From: Anaerolineales bacterium
GTDB taxonomy: Bacteria > Chloroflexota > Anaerolineae > Anaerolineales > E44-bin32
DNA: 64,000 nucleotides
Reading direction: 5' to 3'
Assembly (NCBI GenBank): GCA_037382465.1
Contig: JARRPX010000002.1
Span: forward strand, 70,714 to 134,713
Part shown: positions 12,531 to 29,237 of the stretch, piece by piece
How positions within the stretch are numbered: position 1 is the stretch's first letter
How the letters are laid out: every line of letters starts with the position of its first letter
Program-made: the position numbers and the translations under genes
Notes under the pieces: generated by a model
What the model was told of the DNA's origin: nothing
The model's input: the letters and a program-made list of their open reading frames with translations, nothing else
Databases searched by the model: none

Positions 12531-12531
12531 G

Positions 12532-12932
12532 TGGAGATGGCGGGAATCGAACCCGCGTCCGAAGATGTTGATTGCTGAACGTCTACAAGCGTAGTCGATC
12601 TATTACTTTTTCACTCGTTACAGTTGCCAATCGACAGGCTTCTGATTGAGCTATCCACTAGAGCCCGAGAGCTCTGCTAACACGCGAGCCGTGGAATCTC
12701 GTGTGGTACCTCGTCCATTTGTCACCGATCTGTTCACCGGACAAGGGAGGTAAACAGCGGCGGGTCTTGTATTTACAAGACCGGAGCTCGTTCTCTAGCA
12801 GTTTATGCCGCTAAAGGAAGAGCCGCAAAGTCAGTGCGTTTGGCACTTAAGGTTTTGCACTGATTTTTCGAGATCGGTGCCTCTCGGCTTGCAGTCCAGT
12901 ATCATCCAACTCCGTCGAAACCGATCATCCCC
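12532..12932 (-). ncRNA. ssrA: Transfer-messenger RNA (tmRNA)
   Basis: This RNA rescues stalled ribosomes together with SmpB. The 5' end GGGGATG pairs with the 3' end CATCTCC to give the tRNA-like acceptor stem, and the T arm GGGTTCGA-type sequence sits near the 3' end. The tag reading frame runs from the resume codon GCC (12844-12842) to TAA (12805-12803) and encodes AKRTDFAALPLAA, ending in the hydrophobic LAA expected of a proteolysis tag. The 3' CCA is not fully encoded. The ends are set from base pairing. smpB lies about 0.95 kb upstream on the same strand. Confidence 0.93.
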
Positions 12933-13091: not shown

Positions 13092-13880
13092 CTACCATGT
13101 GCTGTCCGGGAAAGTGGTGATTGAAGCGGCTGTATGAATGTGCTTGTACATCGTTACATACGTAAAGGGTTCGCCAAGAATACCGTCGTGGATCGACCAA
13201 CTTCTGCCGCGGATCGTTTTCTCCATCCCTTTCATGCGGAACGGGGTGCTGTCATCGAGTTTATTATACAGAGGCCCGTCTTTGGAAAATTGCTCATTGA
13301 TTGCGTGCATACGCTTTAAACCTTGTTGATAGGCGAAACCGTAGCGTTCGAAAATAACGGCGTTATGGTAATACAATGGCTCCACGAAATATATCGTCTG
13401 TCCCAGCGATTCGGCGAAATCTTCAAACGCACGAATTGAATGCTGCAATATCCTCAAACCACTGCGAACTTGACCAGGCGCGAGCCCCGCTTTCATGGCA
13501 GACAACTCGGCCTCAATGTTGCGCCTGAGTGTGCCAAAATCCGTCTTCGACCCGTCGGGCATACGGTCGACATTATAACGGGGAGAATCGGGATCGTTGA
13601 CGATATACAATAATATATGCAGCTGTCCGTTAATCGTGTCAGTTATATGGGCGTAAAGCAGGGGATCCTCGGCTTCATAAGAATGACGTAGGTCTAGAAT
13701 GACCTCTGTGCTGCCTGATTCACACTCAAGCCGCAGGAGATCTCGCCCTTCGACATCTTTGTAATCGGAGGGGAGGTTGAAACGTTGACGTAACACCTCA
13801 GGTATAAAACGTCGATAAATCGAAGTCTTTTCCCCAAGCGTGAGCTGATTTACGGCAGCTATCGATTGGGGACTCATCAT
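13092..13880 (-). CDS. Hypothetical protein downstream of smpB
   Basis: I do not recognise this 262-residue protein. It is soluble, with no signal peptide or membrane segment. The middle part (EVILDLRHSYEAEDPLLYAHITD) looks like alternating beta strands and helices. The segment YHNAVIFERYGFAYQQGLKRM resembles the N-x-x-x-x-x-Y/F-E-R-x-G-F tail of GNAT acetyltransferases, but no CoA-binding motif A is evident. Its ATG overlaps the smpB stop (ATGA), so it is translationally coupled as the third gene of the S41 protease-smpB operon. A role tied to trans-translation is possible only by context. Confidence 0.6.
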   Translation of the reverse strand: MMSPQSIAAVNQLTLGEKTSIYRRFIPEVLRQRFNLPSDYKDVEGRDLLRLECESGSTEVILDLRHSYEAEDPLLYAHITDTINGQLHILLYIVNDPDSPRYNVDRMPDGSKTDFGTLRRNIEAELSAMKAGLAPGQVRSGLRILQHSIRAFEDFAESLGQTIYFVEPLYYHNAVIFERYGFAYQQGLKRMHAINEQFSKDGPLYNKLDDSTPFRMKGMEKTIRGRSWSIHDGILGEPFTYVTMYKHIHTAASITTFPDSTW

Positions 13881-14344
13881 GAACGATTCCTCTTTGACAT
13901 GCTGCGATCGATTTCACGTTGAGCGTCACGTTTGGCAATCGCACGCCGTTTGTCATACTTCCGTTTGCCACGTGCGAGAGCAATTTCGACTTTTACACGG
14001 CCGCGTTTAAAATACATCCGGAGTGGAATGATCGTGTACCCACGCTGTTGCATCAAGTCCTTCAGCTTCGAGATCTCTCGCCCGTGCAAGAGAAGTTTCC
14101 GCGACCGCTTCGGATCATGATTGAAACGACTCGCCGGATCGTAAGGCGCAATGTGGACATTGACCAACCATGCTTCCATATCCGTTATTTGAACATACGC
14201 CTCCCGCAAGCTTACTCGGCCGGCACGTATCGATTTTATTTCCGTTCCCTTCAAGACGATCCCAGCCTCGAAGGTATCGTACAGGAAATAATCGTGGGTT
14301 GCTTTCCGATTCGTAGCGATGTTCTTCGTTCCGGTCTGCTTCAC
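13877..14344 (-). CDS. smpB: SsrA-binding protein SmpB
   Basis: SmpB binds the tRNA-like part of tmRNA and delivers it to stalled ribosomes. The family blocks are intact: NRKATHDYFLYDTFEAGIVL, GTEIKSIRAGRVSLREAYV, HIAPYDPASRFNHDPKRSRKLLLH and the basic C-terminal tail with GKRKYDKRRAIAKRD. At 155 residues the length is normal. It overlaps both neighbours by 4 bases, placing it in a tight operon with the S41 protease upstream and the unknown protein downstream. Its partner RNA ssrA is encoded just beyond. Confidence 0.97.
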   Translation of the reverse strand: MKQTGTKNIATNRKATHDYFLYDTFEAGIVLKGTEIKSIRAGRVSLREAYVQITDMEAWLVNVHIAPYDPASRFNHDPKRSRKLLLHGREISKLKDLMQQRGYTIIPLRMYFKRGRVKVEIALARGKRKYDKRRAIAKRDAQREIDRSMSKRNRS

Positions 14345-17613: not shown

Positions 17614-17812
17614 AACGAAGACACGTAAGTTAATCCGAGACGGGTTCGTCAGCTTTTAACTCGAAAGTCAGCTTCAAGGCTGATTATGTTCAGCGGCACA
17701 GAATGAGAAACGCTACAATTCTCTGCAGTACTTCAGCTAGTGGCTTATATTCAACTCCAGATATAGGTTTAGCTTTCCTACAAGTGGTCTGGAGGTGAAT
17801 GGACGGGAAAAC

Positions 17813-19255
17813 ATGAAACATGCTGTCGTTGGTTGGGAATCGACAACCCCAATACCGGATCAATCTCTGAGTAGGTATCTCATCGCGCGTAATGGGCGCC
17901 TGTTTTATGAAGACTTGGATCTAGCAGCGCTTTTCGAGGAAAAAGGTCGGTCGCTCAACCTCGAACGAGAACTCCACAGCCCGCTAGAAATCGTGTATCT
18001 TCCAATGATCCGCCGGCAAATCCACAACATGCAGGATATTTTTTCCCGGGCAATCGAAGATGTGAGGTACGCCGGCAAATTCCGATACGCATATGCATCT
18101 AAAGCAAACGCAGCGGAAGAAGTAATACGGACGACACTGAATGCCGGTGCGCAACACGAAATATCGTCCTTGATGGATATTGAAATTCTGCGTGTTATGC
18201 AGAAGCGTGGATTCCTCGATCCGCAAACCATGATTCTATGTAACGGATTCAAGCCTCCGAATTCGTCTTACGCAGACCAGATCGTGCAGTTCAAACGCGA
18301 ACACGATCCTGTCATACCGGTGGTTGAAGATATTCCTGAATTATCATCGCTAATCGAATCTCATCTTCCTTTCGAAATTGGATTGCGTCAAAAAAGCTAC
18401 GGCCTGCATAGAGATTTGTCTGAGATGGATAGTTCAAATTCCCGATTCGGCATGAACGTCCATGATATTTTTGAAGCCGCAGAGATCGCACACGATGCAT
18501 CCAACATCAATCTGAAGCTCTACCACGCCATGGTAGGAAGCCAAATCGTTGACATTGATAATTTCGTAGAGCGGCTTCGTCCTCCTATAGAGATATTCGC
18601 CCGATTACGTCAAAAATATCCCGAACTTTCCATATTCGATTTCGGTGGCGGAGTGCCCGTGGCGATGACACTTGACTTTGAATGTGATTATCTGGCTTTC
18701 GCTGTTAACTTACTCTCAACGATCAAAGACATATGTGATAAATACAGTGTGGATGTTCCAGATATTATCGGCGAATTCGGCCGTTATACAGTCACGGAGC
18801 ACGGGGCGCATCTCTTCAAAATCATCAGCGTGAAAGATAACGGTTCTAAGTATCCCTGGTACATCATCGATGGTTCGATCATGTCGTCCTTTCCCGACAG
18901 TTGGGCCCTGGGAGAACATTTCACGGTCTTGCCGCTGAACCATTTAGATCGACCATTCCAGCGTGTTCAATTGGGCGGTTTAACTTGTGACAGCGATGAT
19001 ATTTATCCACCTCACAAGAGCAAATCGCCGTTATTTCTTCCTGTCGATGCCGGTGATTTATATATCGGCTTTTTCGGAATTGGAGCGTACCAGGAGATGC
19101 TCGGAGGAGCGGGAGGCAGCAAGCATTGCGTTATACCCGAAGCAGATGAATTGATCATCGATCGAGATAAAGATGGGAAGTATAAGTTCGATTTGATTGC
19201 GGGGCAAGGACCTCGCGCCGTTCTCGGCAACCTCGGATATCGGCCGCGGGTATAA
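17813..19255 (+). CDS. PLP-dependent decarboxylase, SpeA-like (fold III)
   Basis: A 480-residue alanine-racemase-fold decarboxylase. The PLP Lys is K97 in YAYASKAN. Other landmarks are IGLR, SRFGMN, GSQI, FDFGGG, GEFGRYTVTEH, the active-site Cys C392 in CDSDD, and GAYQEML. The last three resemble biosynthetic arginine decarboxylase more than LysA. SpeA is normally about 630-660 residues and this protein lacks its inserted domains, so arginine, diaminopimelate or another basic amino acid could be the substrate. ATG 17813 follows GGGA; GTG 17795 is also possible. It precedes the envelope cluster by 46 bases. Confidence 0.75.
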   Translation: MKHAVVGWESTTPIPDQSLSRYLIARNGRLFYEDLDLAALFEEKGRSLNLERELHSPLEIVYLPMIRRQIHNMQDIFSRAIEDVRYAGKFRYAYASKANAAEEVIRTTLNAGAQHEISSLMDIEILRVMQKRGFLDPQTMILCNGFKPPNSSYADQIVQFKREHDPVIPVVEDIPELSSLIESHLPFEIGLRQKSYGLHRDLSEMDSSNSRFGMNVHDIFEAAEIAHDASNINLKLYHAMVGSQIVDIDNFVERLRPPIEIFARLRQKYPELSIFDFGGGVPVAMTLDFECDYLAFAVNLLSTIKDICDKYSVDVPDIIGEFGRYTVTEHGAHLFKIISVKDNGSKYPWYIIDGSIMSSFPDSWALGEHFTVLPLNHLDRPFQRVQLGGLTCDSDDIYPPHKSKSPLFLPVDAGDLYIGFFGIGAYQEMLGGAGGSKHCVIPEADELIIDRDKDGKYKFDLIAGQGPRAVLGNLGYRPRV

Positions 19256-19301: not shown

Positions 19302-20912
19302 ATGAGAAGCATGGATCGAACGAGAATCATATTTATTGCCATCGTAGGACTGGCGCTTGCGATTGTTGTTTGTGGGTTTCTTTATAACAGGATCTCGGAT
19401 CTGCTAACGTCAGGTGGTGAAACGCCGTCACCCTCTATTGGCGAGTCCGTACCCATCGATTTAAGCTCACCGGATCCGATATTCGGACCGAATTATAAAG
19501 CCAGCGATGGCTTACCCACTTACATCTGCGGCGCCGACGCGTTTGGCAGCTATTTCACCTTACAGCAAATGCAGATGTCGGGTAAGGACGTCGAACACGG
19601 GTTCCACCTTGGTATTATCCCCTTCCTTCTGGATGAGGATCCACGCTACGAAATTTCTGAAGAACAACGTACTGCACTTCTAGATCAAGGTGAGTGGGAT
19701 TGCCTTCTGACCACCCTCGACTCCGTCGCGCTGACCAGCCCTGGTGCAATCACCGCCATTGTGGATGAGAGCGCAGGCGCAGATCAACTATGGGCGCGCG
19801 ATATTCAAACCATCAACGATCTGGATGATAAACGAATTACTTTCTCCAGAGGGAGCGTTGGGGAATACTTTGTATACTATACCCTCTCGATTGCCAGGCT
19901 CAATCCCCGCTTTGATGTCACACTCGTTCCAGAGAATAGTGTTGCGGATGCCGTAGAAGCTTTTAACGCCGGCCAAGCCGATGCCGTTTCAGGATGGGAA
20001 CCGGACATATACGAAGCGGAATCTAGCGGCGGCATCCCTCTGTTGAGTTCCGCGCAGTTACGTATCGTCATGGACGTCATCGTGACTTCACGTCAATCCA
20101 TCGAAGCCAAAGCGAATACAGTGCAAGCATTCCATGACGCATGGTTTGATACACTCAAAACACAGGTGGAAGACTTCGAAGCTGCCGCCAGTCAGATCGC
20201 AGATTGGGGTCACAATGACTGGAGCTACGTTTATCCTGAAAGCGCGGAAGATGATCTTGTATTGTGGCTGGAGAACGTCGCCCAAGCCGACTTGAGCGAC
20301 AACATACTTGTCATGCGTGATCCGGATCCAATCATCGACAGGCTTGAAACAGCTCGAAGAGTCTGGGCAGCATCCGGATTGGAAGTTCCTGCCGATGACG
20401 TCCAAGACCTGTTTAATCCGGGTTTCGTCTCGCGTTCCGCCGCCCAAGCCAATTTACAGGCCAATGGCGATCCGGTCAACAACAGCTTTTCAATATCCTC
20501 ACAAATCGATCTGTCTGGGATCAGCACGGATGATGCTGCTACGCTCGCCGTACTCCCGTGCCGGCGTTTCGCGTTCTTGCCCGAATCGACAGAGTTGACC
20601 CTCGAATCACGCAGAATACTGGACGAATGCGTTCTGCCGACGTTATCTCAAAGCGTCGGGCTCCTTCTCCAGGTGAAAGGTTCGTCGGCTTGGCCGGGGC
20701 CGTCCGGACAGTACACCAAAGATGAAATTTCAGAATTCGCAATAGCGCGTGCACAATCTGTCGTTGATTACCTTGTCTCGCAGGGCATCGACCCGGCTCG
20801 ATTCATCGTCGAAGGAATCTTGCCGCCTCGTGATCACTGGGAGACGGAGGATCCCGAGATTCAAGCCGAAGACCGCTACGTCGAAATGAGCCTGATCACG
20901 GTGGGTCGGTGA
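19302..20912 (+). CDS. Substrate-binding-like domain fused to OmpA-like domain
   Basis: A 536-residue envelope protein with one N-terminal membrane anchor (RIIFIAIVGLALAIVVCGFLY). Residues about 50-360 look like a periplasmic binding protein of the nitrate/taurine class (ADAFGSYFTLQQM, GEWDCLLTTLDS, KRITFSRGSVGEYFVYY, AFNAGQADAVSGWEPD). The last 130 residues form an OmpA-like peptidoglycan-binding domain (AFLPESTELTLESRRILDE, FAIARAQSVVDYLVSQGIDPARF). RBS GAGGG is 6 bases before the ATG. No permease or ATPase is nearby, so it is probably a sensor or scaffold and not a transporter part. It is the first gene of a cluster with VWA, PspA and a coiled-coil membrane protein. Confidence 0.8.
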   Translation: MRSMDRTRIIFIAIVGLALAIVVCGFLYNRISDLLTSGGETPSPSIGESVPIDLSSPDPIFGPNYKASDGLPTYICGADAFGSYFTLQQMQMSGKDVEHGFHLGIIPFLLDEDPRYEISEEQRTALLDQGEWDCLLTTLDSVALTSPGAITAIVDESAGADQLWARDIQTINDLDDKRITFSRGSVGEYFVYYTLSIARLNPRFDVTLVPENSVADAVEAFNAGQADAVSGWEPDIYEAESSGGIPLLSSAQLRIVMDVIVTSRQSIEAKANTVQAFHDAWFDTLKTQVEDFEAAASQIADWGHNDWSYVYPESAEDDLVLWLENVAQADLSDNILVMRDPDPIIDRLETARRVWAASGLEVPADDVQDLFNPGFVSRSAAQANLQANGDPVNNSFSISSQIDLSGISTDDAATLAVLPCRRFAFLPESTELTLESRRILDECVLPTLSQSVGLLLQVKGSSAWPGPSGQYTKDEISEFAIARAQSVVDYLVSQGIDPARFIVEGILPPRDHWETEDPEIQAEDRYVEMSLITVGR

Positions 20913-20921
20913 GAGTAAGCC

Positions 20922-22607
20922 ATGGAAAACACGATTAACAAGTCCCGGAGGCCAGGCAAGGTGAAAAACGCCGCTCGAATCGTCATCCCTATCTTGACGC
21001 TTCTCATTTCAAGCATAGCTTGTGATCTCACAGGTTCAAGTGGTCCAGAGAAGAACGCCGTCCTTCTAGACCTCGTCGCAAATAGTAACCTGCATGCATG
21101 GCTCGAGACCGCCGTGGACAATTTCAACGACGCGGATTTTGAGACTGCCGACGGCCTGCCGATCTATGTTGAATACCAGATCGTCGAAGCGGGTCAATCC
21201 GTCGTGAATATGACCTCCGGCGGCGGAATTCCAGCGCTTTGGATCCCTGACGACCCGGTGTGGGGAGAAATCTTGGCCGATCAAGGGGTAGGTGTTTTTG
21301 CCGACGATTGTGACAGCGTAGTAGAAAGCCCTCTGGTGATTGCTATGTGGCGACCGATTGCCGAAGCTTTGGGCTGGCCGGGGCGTGAGTTGGGTTGGCT
21401 GGATGTCGGCAGTCTTGCAGCCGATCCCAGCGCCTGGGATTATTACAGCGGCGGTCAGTATGGGGACAGTCTGAGACTTGGCCACACCCATCCAGGATTA
21501 TCCGCATCTGGGACGGGCACGCTGCTCTCACTCGTTCAAGCAGCTCAATCAAAGACGGAGGCCGTACAACCCGAAGAGATACAACTGCCGATCGTGCAGG
21601 CTTCTGTCGGCGCGTTCGAGGCTGCGGTATCGTGGTTCAGCAGCAGCACGGAGGGATTGGCTCAGACGATGCGATCTCGCGGAATCGATTTCCTTGGAGC
21701 GGCGATCGTCTACGAAAGCACGGTTTATGAATATGGTTCGGGCAATGTGGATATTGTTCCCATCTATCCACTTGAAGGAACGTTTATCGCCACCAATCCG
21801 GCATGCATTAATTCGTCACTCTCTGTTGAGCGGATGCAAGCAGCGGAGATTTTTCGTAATTATTTACTCGGCGAAGAAGGTCAACAATTGGCACTCGAGC
21901 ATGGGCTGCGTGAGGTATCGGGAGAATCACCAACGACGTTCTTGAGCAATCAAGATGGATTCGACGTCCATCAACCGGCTCGCGTATTCGATGCGCCTAG
22001 TGTTGATTCCGTTTATGCCGCACAAGATTTATGGCAATCTGCTCGTAAGGACGTCAATCTAGCGATGTTGATCGACATTTCCGGCAGTATGCGCGGTAAT
22101 AAGATCGCCAGCGTCCAGGATGCAGCCGTACGCTTCGTCGAGCAAATGGGGGACGATGATTACATTTCCATTATCGCATTTGCAAACGAGACGTTCGTCC
22201 TCGTCGAATATCAACAAGTAGGAGAAGGACGAACTGCGGCAATCGACGCAATTCGTAATTTAGAAGCTGGCGGAAATACGCCTCTGTACGACGCTCTGGG
22301 TGTTGGTGCAGCGTTGATCGACAGACATTCCTCTTCTCAATACAGCAATGCGTTGGTCGTTCTGACGGACGGCATGGACACGGGAAGTACGCGCTACGAC
22401 TTTGATCGACGCCTTTTCGACCTCGTCACTGCAAACGGCACAACGGTTTTTGCCATCGCATACGGAAACGACGCGGATGAGGATCTTTTAGAGGAATTAG
22501 CGCTGCAAACGAATGGCAACTTTTACATCGGTGATGAAGCGAGCCTCATTTTGATTTACGAGGAGATGTCCGCCGCATTCGGCGGCAACGTTGGAGTGGG
22601 GAGGTAG
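20922..22607 (+). CDS. Lipoprotein with substrate-binding-like and VWA domains
   Basis: A 561-residue lipoprotein; the lipobox SSIAC places the acylated Cys at C34. Residues about 45-330 have the fold signals of a class II periplasmic binding protein (VDNFNDADFETADGLPIYVEY, PALWIPDDPVW, IVPIYPLEGTF). Residues about 375-555 are a von Willebrand A domain with an intact MIDAS: DISGS starting at D385, TPLYDAL and LTDGMD. VWA domains bind ligands through a metal ion. It starts 9 bases after the OmpA-fusion gene, so the two are one transcriptional unit. It lacks any transporter partner. Confidence 0.82.
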   Translation: MENTINKSRRPGKVKNAARIVIPILTLLISSIACDLTGSSGPEKNAVLLDLVANSNLHAWLETAVDNFNDADFETADGLPIYVEYQIVEAGQSVVNMTSGGGIPALWIPDDPVWGEILADQGVGVFADDCDSVVESPLVIAMWRPIAEALGWPGRELGWLDVGSLAADPSAWDYYSGGQYGDSLRLGHTHPGLSASGTGTLLSLVQAAQSKTEAVQPEEIQLPIVQASVGAFEAAVSWFSSSTEGLAQTMRSRGIDFLGAAIVYESTVYEYGSGNVDIVPIYPLEGTFIATNPACINSSLSVERMQAAEIFRNYLLGEEGQQLALEHGLREVSGESPTTFLSNQDGFDVHQPARVFDAPSVDSVYAAQDLWQSARKDVNLAMLIDISGSMRGNKIASVQDAAVRFVEQMGDDDYISIIAFANETFVLVEYQQVGEGRTAAIDAIRNLEAGGNTPLYDALGVGAALIDRHSSSQYSNALVVLTDGMDTGSTRYDFDRRLFDLVTANGTTVFAIAYGNDADEDLLEELALQTNGNFYIGDEASLILIYEEMSAAFGGNVGVGR

Positions 22608-22776
22608 CCCCTTATTGGCCAACCTGCCGCATGAGGATATAAACGTGGGAGCCCGCGATAGAAAAGTAGAACCAAGGAGGGTGGTATATCGGCCGTAGAA
22701 AGAATATTCGTACGGATGTGAGAAACGAAACTGCCAATTCACACTGGCAATATGCTATGAAAAAGGAGAATGTAGA

Positions 22777-23454
22777 ATGGCATCCCTATTAGAAAAAGTA
22801 TCAACGCTAATTTCAGCCAACCTCCACGCACTCGTGGACCAGGCTCTCTCGACCAACAGCATGGCGGTAATCGATCAGTACATCCGCCAGGTCGAGAATC
22901 ACCTGGAGGACCTGGAAGATGCTGCCGCGACGGTTGGGGGCGAAGCGAAGTCGATCAGTCGTAAGCTCGAAGACTTGCGGTTAAAATCTGAAGAATTGGA
23001 TAAGGCCGTTGATGCATTTCTGCAAGAAGGAAATGATGCGGCTGCCACCGCAGCGCAAAGTCGACTGAACAGTACGGAACGTCTGATCGAGACGTTCCAG
23101 GAACAGCTCGCCCGGCAGGAGACCGAGTATCAGAAGCTTCTCGATGCGAAGGTGAAACTCGAAGCTCGTCTGTCTACAATGAAGACACAGCGCACTGAAC
23201 TCCAAGCCCTGCTCGAACTGGCGAAGAGCAAAGAGACGATGGTCAAAGCCATGAAGAGTCTGGATGACCTCATGGGTGTTGGCGACAGCGACATCAGTCG
23301 TCTCGCAGAAAGCATCCAGAAGGGACTTGACAAGGCGACGACCGTCACCGAACTGCGTTCGACGTCACTTGATGAGCAGATCGATTCCATCCTCGACAAG
23401 GGCAAGATCGATGCTCAACTCGCAGAACGCAAGAAAAAGTTGAAGATCGAGTAA
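22777..23454 (+). CDS. pspA: PspA/IM30-family protein
   Basis: A 225-residue all-helical protein. The opening MASLLEKVSTLISANLHALVDQA matches the N-terminal amphipathic helix and helix 1 of PspA/Vipp1. The following region is a long heptad-rich coiled coil (DQYIRQVENHLEDLEDAAATVGG, RLIETFQEQLARQETEYQKLLDAKVKLEARL). PspA-family proteins polymerise on the inner membrane and counter loss of membrane integrity. RBS AGGAG lies 8 bases before the ATG. A 169-base gap separates it from the VWA gene, and a 13-base-stem hairpin follows. No pspF/pspBC homologue is present. Confidence 0.9.
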   Translation: MASLLEKVSTLISANLHALVDQALSTNSMAVIDQYIRQVENHLEDLEDAAATVGGEAKSISRKLEDLRLKSEELDKAVDAFLQEGNDAAATAAQSRLNSTERLIETFQEQLARQETEYQKLLDAKVKLEARLSTMKTQRTELQALLELAKSKETMVKAMKSLDDLMGVGDSDISRLAESIQKGLDKATTVTELRSTSLDEQIDSILDKGKIDAQLAERKKKLKIE

Positions 23455-23461
23455 GATCATT

Positions 23462-23491
23462 CGGACTACCCAGGCTGCCCTGGGTAGTCCG
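23462..23491 (+). terminator. Strong hairpin between pspA and the coiled-coil membrane gene
   Basis: CGGACTACCCAGG and its exact reverse complement form a 13-base stem with a 4-base loop. No T run follows, so it is more likely an mRNA-stabilising or attenuating hairpin than a full intrinsic terminator. Confidence 0.5.
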
Positions 23492-23508
23492 AATCATTCA
23501 AAATCATC

Positions 23509-24330
23509 ATGAACATCTTTCGTCCAGAACTGCCTGAAGAGGCACGTTCAACCATCGTACAATACGCATTTTTCCGCTGGGAAAATGCAATCGTGATCGC
23601 AGGAACGATCTTGCTCATCGCGTTGATGCCCCAGCCATTCCCCTGGTGGCCCTGGTGGGGCTGGTTGCTGCTTGGGTTGATAGGCGTAATTTCGATCTTG
23701 TTCTCGAGTATCACCAACGAAGAGTTCAATGCGCGTATGCTGTTGAAAATCTTTCAGAGACAGTTCGATTTGAAACGCATAAAGGATCCACAGCTGCACA
23801 ATAAACTTACCTCAGCCCTCGAGTATCAACGCAGGATATTCACGAAAACGCGTTTTCCAGAGACCAGTGTGATGAAAGAACGTGCGGATGGAACTAACAA
23901 TCAACTGAACGATTGGATCCGCAATATGTACCGGTTGGCGATCCGGCTGGATACATATCGGCGCGACAAACTCATGCGCCAGGATCTCGATCAGATCGTA
24001 GAAACGATCGATAAACTCAAGGATCAGCGCAAGCGTGAAACCAGCGCTCCGCTCAGAAAGCAATTGGAAGACGTCATCGAAAGCAAGGAGAAGCAGCTCG
24101 AGACGATGCAAGCGCTGGAAAACCGCATGAAGCAGGCCGAGTTATCGCTTGAGCAAAGCCTTACGGCGCTAGCTACTGTTGATAGCCAGGTCCAATTGAT
24201 CGACGCCGAGGATATCCAAAGCGGTCGCTCGATCCGTTTGCGGGAAGACATACAGGAACAGGTCTTGCGATTGGACGATTTGGTGAGCAGCATCAACCAG
24301 GTGTACGACTATCACTCTCGCGCCTTGTGA
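23509..24330 (+). CDS. Membrane protein with cytoplasmic coiled coil
   Basis: An unrecognised 273-residue protein. A hairpin of two transmembrane segments is near the N terminus (NAIVIAGTILLIALMPQPF and WWGWLLLGLIGVISILF), with a Trp/Pro-rich turn PWWPWWGW between them. The rest (about residues 75-270) is charged coiled coil (DLDQIVETIDKLKDQRKRE, LEDVIESKEKQLETMQALENRMKQAE). It is the last gene of the PspA cluster and ends just before a terminator. By position it may anchor or recruit the PspA polymer to the membrane. That is inference only. Confidence 0.7.
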   Translation: MNIFRPELPEEARSTIVQYAFFRWENAIVIAGTILLIALMPQPFPWWPWWGWLLLGLIGVISILFSSITNEEFNARMLLKIFQRQFDLKRIKDPQLHNKLTSALEYQRRIFTKTRFPETSVMKERADGTNNQLNDWIRNMYRLAIRLDTYRRDKLMRQDLDQIVETIDKLKDQRKRETSAPLRKQLEDVIESKEKQLETMQALENRMKQAELSLEQSLTALATVDSQVQLIDAEDIQSGRSIRLREDIQEQVLRLDDLVSSINQVYDYHSRAL

Positions 24331-24356: not shown

Positions 24357-24391
24357 AAATACCCGGTTCAGTAATGTGAACCGGGTATTTT
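24357..24391 (+). terminator. Intrinsic terminator after the PspA cluster
   Basis: AAATACCCGGTTC and GAACCGGGTATTT form a 13-base stem with an 8-base loop, ending in a T run. It closes the cluster that begins at 19302. Confidence 0.85.
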
Positions 24392-24610: not shown

Positions 24611-24638
24611 TTGACATCGCCATGATAGATGCTAAAAT
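24611..24638 (+). promoter_or_regulatory. Promoter upstream of the tyrosine recombinase
   Basis: TTGACA (24611-24616) and TAAAAT (24633-24638) are separated by 16 bases, giving a leader of about 75 bases. The -10 end overlaps the palindrome at 24637-24674. Confidence 0.5.
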
Positions 24639-24721: not shown

Positions 24722-25708
24722 ATGACTTCAAAATCCATTCTTGAAGCAATGGAAACTTACTTGGAAGGCGTATCCCTTTCTCGCAGCCCCAACACAGCAC
24801 GCACGTATCGTAACGCGCTGGCTGCTTTCGCAGTCACGCTTGAGAGTATAGGAGTGGATATCGAAACCCAATCCGCATCGATTTCTTCGGAAGATTGGAT
24901 CGCCGATTTTGCTACTGACCTGAAGAATTACGCCCCGGCAAGCGAACGGCTTTATCTAACCGCCGTTACAGGATGGTTCGAATATTTGGCCGCAGAACGT
25001 TTGGCTGAAATCAACTTACCCAGACTCCGCCTGATTATTCGCCGGCGGGCGCGAAGGCCCGGCAAGCGGCTGCCCCAATTTCCCCGTTCCGAAATCGAGG
25101 AAATCATCGATCACGCCGATCATCTCAGAGCCGCAGCGCACGAGGACGAACGCGAACGTTTACGAAATTTGCGGGATCGGGCCTTCATCCTCACTCTGGC
25201 CGATACGGGGCTGCGCGTTCACGAAATATGTAAGCTGCGCCGGGGCGACATCGATTGGAATGAGGGCCGCGCTGTCTTGATCGGAAAAGGAGATCGAGAG
25301 GCCGTAGTCCGATTTTCCAGCCGATCGTTGACCGCACTAAAGGACTATCTAGCCGTACGCGGCAAACTCGACGGTCAGACAGGAAAGCCCCTGCATTCTC
25401 TACCGTTGTTTGCTCGACACGATCTCGGCGCAGGAAATCGGATCCTACCCATATCGACGACCACTGGTCGTGCAATAGTGCATCAGCGTGCACGCGAATC
25501 GCTTGGTCCGGATTCCGACGGCGCGATCACGCCCCATTCCTTTCGGCACTACTTCGTCACAACCGTTCTACGCGCATCTGGCGGGAATCTCAAACTCGCA
25601 CAAGAACTAGCCCGGCATCGCAATATCGCCGTCACCCAGCGTTACGCGCACCTTTCGGATGACGAATTGGATCGGGGCTATCACGATATATTCGATCGCA
25701 GACGATAG
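24722..25708 (+). CDS. Tyrosine recombinase (XerC/XerD-like)
   Basis: A 328-residue site-specific recombinase. The N-terminal SAM-like core-binding domain covers about residues 1-105 (TARTYRNALAAFA). The catalytic domain shows the full Arg-His-Arg-Tyr set: DTGLRVHEICKL (Arg I), LIGKGDREAVV (beta-hairpin Lys), HSFRHYFVT (His and Arg II), HRNIAVTQRYAHL (His and nucleophile Tyr). RBS AAGG lies 7 bases before the ATG. It is slightly longer than XerC/D (about 300) and stands alone, with no phage genes nearby, so chromosome-dimer resolution or a small mobile unit are both possible. Confidence 0.85.
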   Translation: MTSKSILEAMETYLEGVSLSRSPNTARTYRNALAAFAVTLESIGVDIETQSASISSEDWIADFATDLKNYAPASERLYLTAVTGWFEYLAAERLAEINLPRLRLIIRRRARRPGKRLPQFPRSEIEEIIDHADHLRAAAHEDERERLRNLRDRAFILTLADTGLRVHEICKLRRGDIDWNEGRAVLIGKGDREAVVRFSSRSLTALKDYLAVRGKLDGQTGKPLHSLPLFARHDLGAGNRILPISTTTGRAIVHQRARESLGPDSDGAITPHSFRHYFVTTVLRASGGNLKLAQELARHRNIAVTQRYAHLSDDELDRGYHDIFDRRR

Positions 25709-27940: not shown

Positions 27941-28702
27941 ATGTTCGATAGGCTACGTCACTTGCTCCGTTCAGAAGGAAGCGCCGAAGATGCCAATGAT
28001 TCGAGCCAACGACAAGCGAATCCACCTACGGGCACTCCTTCAGTAAATACCGACCATTCTCCGAAGAACGTCGTAGACCAGGCCGAAGAACAACAAACGT
28101 CCGAGGACCCTGAGGAGAATGCACAGGTCTATATCGAGCGGGTGCGCAAGAAAATGAGTAAGCTGGCGGAGGAATTTGCCACCGGCATGATCAATCGCGA
28201 ACAATTCCAGGAACTCTTCGATCACTATCAAAAAGAGATGCGGACGATCGAGACCTGGCTGGACACATGGCCCGGTTCTGACGCCTGGCGAAAAGCCAGG
28301 ACGGAAGGTAAAAGCGTTGCAATCCGCAGACGGCATCAAGCCCGTGTGATTGGTTACGCTATTTACAAGAACGACTCGGGCATGCCGATCGCCACGATTG
28401 GAGAGTTCGAACTCGACGCTGCCTTGATCGTCCCAATGCTGTCGTCCTACCGCTCCGCAACACGCGAAATTTTTGGAGCTGGGATGCGCTCGACACAGAT
28501 CGAGAACGGCAACTGGTTGTGCTTCGTTCCCGGCGAGTTGACGACGCTGATGACACTTTACACAACCGAACCTTCCGCCAATCAATTATCGAAGCTCGAC
28601 GATCTACATAGACTGTTCGAAAGAGCGAATCGGAACTTCCTCAACGAGGACGTGGTGGACGCGTCAAATCTTGCACTGCCACACAAATCACTCCTAAAAT
28701 GA
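27941..28702 (+). CDS. Hypothetical protein with probable roadblock-like C-terminal domain
   Basis: A 253-residue soluble protein. Residues about 10-60 are polar and disordered, residues 60-120 are a charged helix pair (YIERVRKKMSKLAEEFATGMINREQFQELFDHY), and the last 110 residues have the feel of a roadblock/LC7 fold (GMPIATIGEFELDAALIVPML, GNWLCFVPGELTTLMTLYT, LSKLDDLHRLFERAN). Roadblock proteins bind small Ras-like GTPases. The domain call is pattern-based and uncertain. The next gene, 31 bases downstream on the same strand, is a Rab-like GTPase, which supports the idea of a regulator-GTPase pair. Confidence 0.55.
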   Translation: MFDRLRHLLRSEGSAEDANDSSQRQANPPTGTPSVNTDHSPKNVVDQAEEQQTSEDPEENAQVYIERVRKKMSKLAEEFATGMINREQFQELFDHYQKEMRTIETWLDTWPGSDAWRKARTEGKSVAIRRRHQARVIGYAIYKNDSGMPIATIGEFELDAALIVPMLSSYRSATREIFGAGMRSTQIENGNWLCFVPGELTTLMTLYTTEPSANQLSKLDDLHRLFERANRNFLNEDVVDASNLALPHKSLLK

Positions 28703-28733: not shown

Positions 28734-29237
28734 ATGGAAAAGCTACCGGTATTAAAGGTTGTGATTGCTGGCGACGAAAACGTGGGAAAGACTTCTTTAG
28801 TGCGTCGCTACTGTGAAGGGAAATTCGACGAATCACGCGTGGCAACCATTGGTGTCGATTTTCAAACCCAAACTTGCCATTTACCCACTGGCGATGTGAA
28901 ACTTTCAATCTGGGACATGGCCGGGCAGGAAAGATTCCGCTTCTTCCGCCAGGATTTCTACCGGGGAGCGTTGGCCACGGCACTCGTGTATGATGTAACT
29001 TTACCGGAGAGCCTGGCCAATCTCGAGACTTGGGCCAAGGACGTCCTCGAAGTGGTACCTACCCAAAAATTCATCGTTGTAGGTAACAAGATCGACATGG
29101 ATAATGCAGTAGATGCTTCCATTGCGCAGCAATTTGCCGTGCAGCATACCGCGACGCATATCTACACCAGCGCGAAAACCGGCGCCGGCGTCGAAGATCT
29201 TTTCACCTCACTCGCCACATTGGCGGTAAATAAATAA
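28734..29237 (+). CDS. Rab-like small GTPase
   Basis: A 167-residue stand-alone Ras-superfamily GTPase with strikingly eukaryote-like motifs. G1 is GDENVGKTS (residues 13-21). The switch I Thr is T38 in ATIGVDF, and switch II is WDMAGQERF with Q65 in place. Later motifs are FYRGALATALVYDVT, G4 NKID (118-121) and G5 TSAK (145-148). Intact Gln65 and Thr38 suggest functional GTP hydrolysis. No C-terminal Cys for prenylation exists, so membrane attachment would need a partner. Bacterial members of this superfamily (MglA, Rup families) often pair with roadblock proteins, as here. Confidence 0.9.
   Translation: MEKLPVLKVVIAGDENVGKTSLVRRYCEGKFDESRVATIGVDFQTQTCHLPTGDVKLSIWDMAGQERFRFFRQDFYRGALATALVYDVTLPESLANLETWAKDVLEVVPTQKFIVVGNKIDMDNAVDASIAQQFAVQHTATHIYTSAKTGAGVEDLFTSLATLAVNK

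Follow-up and report, generated by a model that had tools for sequence, protein, structure and literature searches.

The locus considered here raises the question of what solute-binding folds joined to OmpA and VWA domains do beside a gene for the membrane-repair protein PspA when no transporter is encoded with them. It lies in a 64,000-nucleotide stretch of contig JARRPX010000002.1 (positions 70,714 to 134,713) from an Anaerolineales bacterium of the phylum Chloroflexota (GenBank assembly GCA_037382465.1); this whole stretch is called the window below, and coordinates count from its first letter. A preliminary description had listed four genes in a row, closed by a terminator and lacking permease and ATPase genes, and had read the binding folds as sensors that link peptidoglycan or an envelope ligand to PspA at the membrane. 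We hold the chances to be about evenly balanced that this is the Chloroflexota version of a membrane-stress system of the phage shock protein (PSP) type, in which anchored binding folds and an adaptor protein, here called G4, would couple an extracytoplasmic signal to PspA. Taken as a whole, the gene set is probably an undescribed way of linking the cell surface to membrane repair.

The row and the transporter question

An open reading frame (ORF) check of the window recovered all four genes of the preliminary description, on the + strand, and Pfam agrees with their naming. Gene 1 (19302-20912; 536 aa) encodes an NMT1-type binding protein (Pfam NMT1 3.2e-5, above the cut-off) with one predicted N-terminal transmembrane (TM) segment, residues 9-27, as its anchor and an OmpA-like domain at its C terminus. 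Gene 2 (20922-22607; 561 aa) joins an SBP_bac_11 binding protein to a VWA domain in a predicted lipoprotein (Cys34), gene 3 (22777-23454; 225 aa) encodes PspA/IM30, of the ESCRT-III superfamily, and gene 4 (23509-24330; 273 aa) encodes G4, a TM hairpin with a Trp-rich turn followed by long helices, which belongs to no known family.

That the cluster is free of a transporter, as first described, was borne out. No ABC ATPase motif occurs in the ORFs of window positions 9000-36000, downstream on the contig the first BPD_transp_1 permease does not appear until about 51167, some 27 kb away, and the cluster lacks the permease and ATPase that are encoded alongside the binding protein of an ABC importer. 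Among the 61 loci compared, three contain ABC ATPase motifs, none of them within 5 kb of G4. The binding proteins might still scavenge a solute and hand it to an ABC permease encoded elsewhere, PspA protecting the membrane during uptake. The genome encodes three NMT1 proteins, and both of the others (C35 and C67) adjoin BPD_transp_1 permeases, of which the genome holds 25 matches; the one in the window does not. However, these two permeases are already paired with NMT1 proteins of their own, and delivery proteins do not usually have their binding folds fused to OmpA or VWA. Even with the precedent of the PspA/Snf7-AAA+ operons, which include an ABC ATPase, a permease and a PBPB-OmpA protein (example OGG56892.1; Ravi et al. 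2024, PMC11237479), we judge this explanation improbable.

PspA, a relative of ESCRT-III, works at the inner membrane (PMC8281802), and the product of gene 3, the sole copy in its genome, matches PspA_IM30 (PF04012) over residues 4-220 of 225 at 5.6e-19, above the cut-off. A membrane partner is a mark of PSP systems, and in the window G4, with two TM segments by prediction, adjoins PspA. The structural model of G4 is all-helical (mean pLDDT 79), and its long helices are probably cytoplasmic; G4 is presented here as the predicted membrane partner of PspA. The window's G4 matched no Pfam or NCBIfam family at E 0.001, and three of its relatives, searched at a laxer E, gave no family match above cut-off; the same holds for the PspB, PspC, LiaF/LiaI and PspM families, for each of which, PspM above all, the presence of a model in these libraries was not confirmed. 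The best VIA-align match (Z 12.1) was to designed helical bundles and falls under the level at which that tool is meaningful for helical bundles, while a profile search of PDB sequences reached E 0.077 at best. The missing structural match is no evidence for a new fold.

Gene sets in Chloroflexota

The conserved neighbourhood that the preliminary description had proposed to look for does exist, in that PspA, binding folds, VWA and G4 recur together across the window's class and in other Chloroflexota classes. In the class, G4 is found in 228 of 396 genomes and PspA in 237; both are present in 212, G4 only in 16, PspA only in 25 and neither in 143. Of 400 genomes drawn from the phylum, 18 contain G4, and several of the 18 belong to the window's own class. 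In a search reaching outside the phylum, the 80 loci retained out of 182 confirmed ones bear titles of Chloroflexota groups, one of them merely titled "bacterium". The neighbourhoods of G4 were compared in 60 loci hand-picked among the best-scoring matches listed of the 228 positives, with a spread over families and long contigs favoured, so that proportions among them cannot be read as those of a random sample; these loci also served to build the family models. At least 5 kb of upstream sequence is present in 49 of the 60 and at least 1.5 kb downstream in 57; among the close-relative loci L043-L053, those lacking G4 were excluded from the G4 counts, as was a "c6" cluster, an artefact made up of long ORFs on the strand opposite G4 and the LIV-type gene.

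Most of these loci follow an arrangement that we call set A, with the usual order regulator, PspA, anchored binding protein, binding protein/VWA, G4 and LIV-type (branched-chain-type) binding lipoprotein. Of the 49 loci with sufficient upstream sequence, 47 have PspA and 44 the VWA protein on the same strand; PspA, VWA protein and an anchored binding protein (of the set-A solute-binding protein (SBP) type or NMT1/OmpA) occur together in 43, and in 41 the same trio is accompanied by the set-A SBP and the LIV-type protein. A same-strand regulator gene lies upstream in 25/49, and the LIV-type protein lies downstream in 46/57. The regulator is a STAND-like NTPase/winged-helix protein (AAA_16/TniB-like NTPase and Trans_reg_C in Pfam), the LIV-type protein matches Peripla_BP_6, and the anchored binding protein matches SBP_bac_8/11 weakly. 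A guess from gene lengths, that G4 might be XpaC-like and the LIV-type protein TelA, was dropped, Pfam giving Peripla_BP_6 for the latter and nothing for G4. Two loci from other Chloroflexota classes (L263 and L264) have the order PspA, SBP, VWA, G4, LIV-type, and PspA-G4 pairs without binding proteins were found in L139, L140, L142 and L262.

Several of the G4 loci have further features of their own. Histidine-kinase/response-regulator-model genes stand immediately 5' of pspA, at or beside the regulator's place, in L121, L138 and L140, the kinase gene of L121 having HisKA, HATPase_c and Response_reg domains. Tandem PspA-like genes occur in the set-A loci L109 (4494-5903), L126 (4605-6098) and L131 (4409-5926), and the second gene of such a tandem is divergent (PF04012 2.8e-5 in L109, below the cut-off). 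A prolipoprotein diacylglyceryl transferase gene is nearby on the same strand in 6/60 loci; in L107, L114, L116, L117 and L119 it is directly 3' of the LIV-type lipoprotein gene, a placement that suits a set rich in lipoproteins.

The NMT1/OmpA protein of the window belongs to a different arrangement, set B, in which a decarboxylase gene is followed by G4 in some cases, then by NMT1/OmpA and binding protein/VWA, normally without PspA. Close homologues of the NMT1/OmpA protein were found in 39 of 396 class genomes, a count of strong matches only, since the total of 121 consists mostly of plain NMT1 proteins. From 36 stretches fetched, the distant L333-L335 were excluded, which leaves 33 close loci; G349 (L086) and G340 (L135) stand outside these 33. 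The VWA protein lies 3' of NMT1/OmpA in 26/33, the remaining seven being loci in which the contig ends at the OmpA gene, a same-strand decarboxylase lies 5' in 21/33, and G4 is directly 5' in 10/33. In the distant L333, L334 and L335 (family f51) there is a decarboxylase-model match 0.6-1.2 kb upstream, encoded on the other strand, and in L086 and L135 a gene of the L-lactate permease family lies 5' of the decarboxylase.

In the window, too, a decarboxylase gene precedes the row (17795-19255, +; 486 aa; short SpeA-like arginine decarboxylase, Orn_Arg_deC_N 5.8e-17), ending 46 nt 5' of gene 1. It was missing from the four genes first listed; judged by its conservation it belongs to the set and is the first gene of the row. 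As a natural unit, therefore, the original four genes are ruled out, because relatives include the decarboxylase and because PspA-G4 is separable from NMT1/OmpA-VWA. The full four-gene order is shared by G054 (L043) and G349 (L086), and the same order, as far as the contigs reach, is found in G305 (L083), G358 (L095) and G011 (L044); within that limit, PspA and G4 come after the OmpA-type VWA gene in these genomes as they do in the window. By similarity the window's VWA protein is far closer to the OmpA-linked VWA proteins of L043, L083, L086, L095 and L135 (E 2e-178 to 6e-218) than to the VWA proteins of set A (mostly about 1e-37 to 1e-57). From this gene order and this similarity we infer that the window represents a rarer composite, in which set B has been joined to a PspA-G4 pair.

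The decarboxylase, which weakly suggests a polyamine or an arginine-derived signal, brings in a further explanation, namely that it makes agmatine, that NMT1/OmpA senses agmatine or a related cation outside, and that PspA and G4 adjust the membrane. Besides its place in the 21 close loci, the gene also precedes NMT1/OmpA in the window, L043, L086, L135 and L261, and among 28 decarboxylases the catalytic motifs are mostly retained (KAN 27/28, Cys motif 25/28, GAYQ 28/28); polyamine genes also recur in PspA-CesT/Tir operons (Ravi et al. 2024, PMC11237479). In the PDB the enzyme is closest to biosynthetic arginine decarboxylases (6e-30), and the best NCBIfam model is PRK05354, biosynthetic arginine decarboxylase (178 bits vs a cut-off of 369). 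However, the enzyme is a short form, has no second homologue in the genome and may be a housekeeping one. Twelve of the 33 loci have no decarboxylase in the sequence covered (some are ended by contig ends), and set A, the main PspA set, does without it. Polyamine control is for these reasons very improbable in our estimate.

Outer domains, coupling to PspA and layout of the row

In gene 2 the lipoprotein Cys34 is conserved in 53/55 aligned family members, and the VWA metal site is intact, its five MIDAS residues (DxSxS...T...D) being invariant in 55/55. For the set-A anchored binding protein, a lipoprotein nature was discarded when the lipoprotein pattern was found in 0/47, and it is read as TM-anchored. 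A model of its anchor (an RTRIIF-like start and the TM segment) matches 34/42 of the NMT1/OmpA N termini at E<1e-3, with a best value of 1.3e-15, and matches no N terminus of the VWA, LIV-type, G4 or PspA proteins at that threshold. The occurrence of two different binding folds on one anchor suggests that they have a common membrane partner, for which G4 would be the obvious candidate. The set-A anchored binding fold has a mean column identity of 0.71, the highest among the stretches compared (its anchor has 0.43; PspA has 0.56, in a different sample), and therefore appears to be constrained by a ligand or an interface, and to be no degenerate leftover.

The peptidoglycan tether is the weakest part of the preliminary description, and the proposed link is doubtful. 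An OmpA-like fold is present in gene 1, with top Foldseek matches to OmpA/Pal/MotB-like domains (best 3.9e-7), in a model that is poor outside this region (mean pLDDT 49.5 overall, built from only six sequences), and the Pfam OmpA match (2.2e-4, 21.9 bits) is below the 27.2 cut-off. What we take, from E. coli OmpA, to be the diaminopimelate (DAP) site consists of an Asp motif, TD..G, and an Arg. The Arg-bearing RAxxV helix motif is kept, by pattern, in 37/42 NMT1/OmpA sequences, and the TD-type motif is found in 0/42, in a crude pattern test that leaves other peptide cross-links possible; close relatives have an SSAWP-type sequence in its place. It is the absence of the Asp motif in all 42, and the lack of an OmpA protein in the commoner set A, that make the link doubtful.

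In the reading that we prefer, PspA would be the inner-membrane effector, as is established for its family, and the TM hairpin of G4 its partner in the membrane, with helices, probably cytoplasmic, that might retain PspA or let it go. The transporter-free receptor on the outer side would consist of the binding-fold/VWA lipoprotein and a TM-anchored binding protein, which is NMT1/OmpA here and a different protein with a homologous anchor in set A; the binding of a ligand or partner would be relayed through the anchor to G4 and then to PspA. In set A the upstream STAND-like NTPase/winged-helix regulator would set expression, by analogy with PspF of E. coli. As a fully specified scheme, a Chloroflexota PSP system in which transporter-free receptors (anchored, VWA lipoprotein and often LIV-type) relay extracytoplasmic chemical signals by way of a new two-TM adaptor family, G4, straight to PspA, the bacterial ESCRT-III protein, under a STAND-like NTPase/winged-helix regulator, we advance this tentatively.

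The overall sense of the preliminary description thus survives in its transporter-free, conserved cluster and in the co-occurrence of G4 and PspA, and loses its peptidoglycan part; NMT1/OmpA and VWA, moreover, normally occur apart from PspA. A number of observations weigh against a coupling of the kind proposed. The association of G4 with PspA in the class is strong (Fisher p about 2e-61), in a test uncorrected for kinship. In the window's own order (60 relatives and its own genome) the cluster is rare, with G4 in 4/61, and NMT1/OmpA and PspA likewise in 4/61 each (one marginal in both cases); the VWA protein is in 58/61, mostly matched by VWA alone. No PspA gene occurs in the 33 close NMT1/OmpA loci within the sequence covered, and PspA adjoining NMT1/OmpA was seen in only four of the 39 genomes with a close OmpA homologue (G000, G349, G305 and G358). 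Two of the 49 G4 loci, L108 and L135, have no PspA despite enough upstream sequence, so that G4 may serve other partners. The window row is without the set-A regulator and LIV-type protein; the regulator model matches a single protein there, 220 aa long and encoded 3.7 kb ahead of the HD-domain regulator gene, and no regulator adjoins pspA. Lastly, G4 could be related neither to PspA, as a divergent copy, by profile (hhalign probability 0.5 percent) nor to a solved structure (best Foldseek E 0.06, to F-BAR).

Some of these observations would suit an envelope complex in which VWA and G4 join the binding-fold proteins, and which serves surface adhesion or helps envelope proteins to be assembled and checked for quality. 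PspA would protect this complex or help to build it, merely keeping the membrane tight, and no signal would pass inward. The binding-fold/VWA sets without PspA nearby fit such a complex, as do L046-L048, where VWA-family proteins are present and G4 and PspA were not found, the intact MIDAS sites, which fit protein-protein binding, and the six nearby prolipoprotein diacylglyceryl transferase genes. The same-strand regulator upstream in about half of the G4 loci argues against it, as do the PspA-G4 pairs without binding proteins, which suggest that PspA-G4 is an independent unit. On this evidence we regard such a complex as somewhat unlikely.

As to the layout of the row, the gaps between the decarboxylase gene and genes 1 to 4 are, in order, 46, 9, 169 and 54 nt. 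A 16-bp stem-loop lies between pspA and G4 (23459-23494, +; -34.2 kcal/mol for a 76-nt stretch, z -8), and the terminator first described after the row is seen as a 13-bp stem followed by T at 24358-24389 (+; z -4.5 for the stretch). The latter is absent from the output of a simple terminator scan, and promoter-like and terminator-like sites in the row stretch were no more frequent in such a scan than in shuffles. Hairpins with z < -3 occur 3' of pspA in 22/55 cases, of SBP in 0/47, of G4 in 8/66, of VWA in 14/63, of LIV-type in 13/46 and of NMT1/OmpA in 0/6. Those that follow pspA are suggestive of differential expression, in a comparison confounded by the coding sequence that directly follows SBP.

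Directly 3' of the row lies a gene for an XerC/D/A-like tyrosine recombinase (24722-25708, +; below NCBIfam cut-offs), with a sigma-70-like promoter ahead of it (24611-24638, +; 11/12 match). About 4.4 kb past the row is a gene for a Ras/Rab-like small GTPase (28734-29237, +; 167 aa; PF00071 1.8e-44), preceded by a 253-aa gene without family match (27941-28702). On the other side, a tmRNA (12531-12932, -) lies near the SmpB gene (13877-14344, -; PF01668 3e-63).

Comparison with known PspA systems

Among the papers searched, no description was found of this PspA/binding-fold/VWA neighbourhood in Chloroflexota; "vwa" does not occur in the main text of Ravi et al. 2024 (PMC11237479), whose supplementary tables, outside our coverage, may list the neighbourhood. 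If the proposed coupling is true, PspA, whose upstream signals are poorly known outside model bacteria, would have an input that extends across the lineage and can be addressed chemically, and G4 would be a new family of PspA membrane partners in a phylum whose envelopes are unusual. The cluster makes it possible to test whether an ESCRT-III-like machine for membrane repair can have solute-binding folds as its receptors, and it cautions against labelling such binding folds as transporter parts in annotation.

The known PSP systems include PspF/PspABC of E. coli, ClgR-PspA-PspM-PspN of M. tuberculosis and LiaIHGF-RS of B. subtilis (Ravi et al. 2024, PMC11237479). The Chloroflexota set resembles them in encoding a PspA/IM30 effector together with a small partner protein of two TM segments; set A can add a DNA-binding regulator upstream. 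It differs in that G4 is without a match to PspB, PspC, LiaF or PspM, in that the partners are binding folds and VWA, and in that the set-A regulator has an OmpR-type winged helix joined to an AAA_16-type NTPase, in place of an NtrC-type AAA+. With the PspA-CesT/Tir operons it has in common PspA beside polyamine-type metabolism; in contrast to them, the enzyme here is of the arginine-decarboxylase type, and none of the five genes of the row matches CesT/Tir or ATP-grasp. The OmpA-like domain shares its fold and the RAxxV motif with the peptidoglycan-binding domains of PF00691, and departs from them in the SSAWP-type sequence and in its Pfam score. To the PspA/Snf7-AAA+ operons the window row is alike in placing PspA close to a periplasmic binding fold fused to OmpA, and unlike them it is without ABC ATPase, permease and Vps4-like AAA+ and has the VWA fusion and G4 in addition; the Chloroflexota set is, moreover, widespread in the window's class and present in other Chloroflexota.

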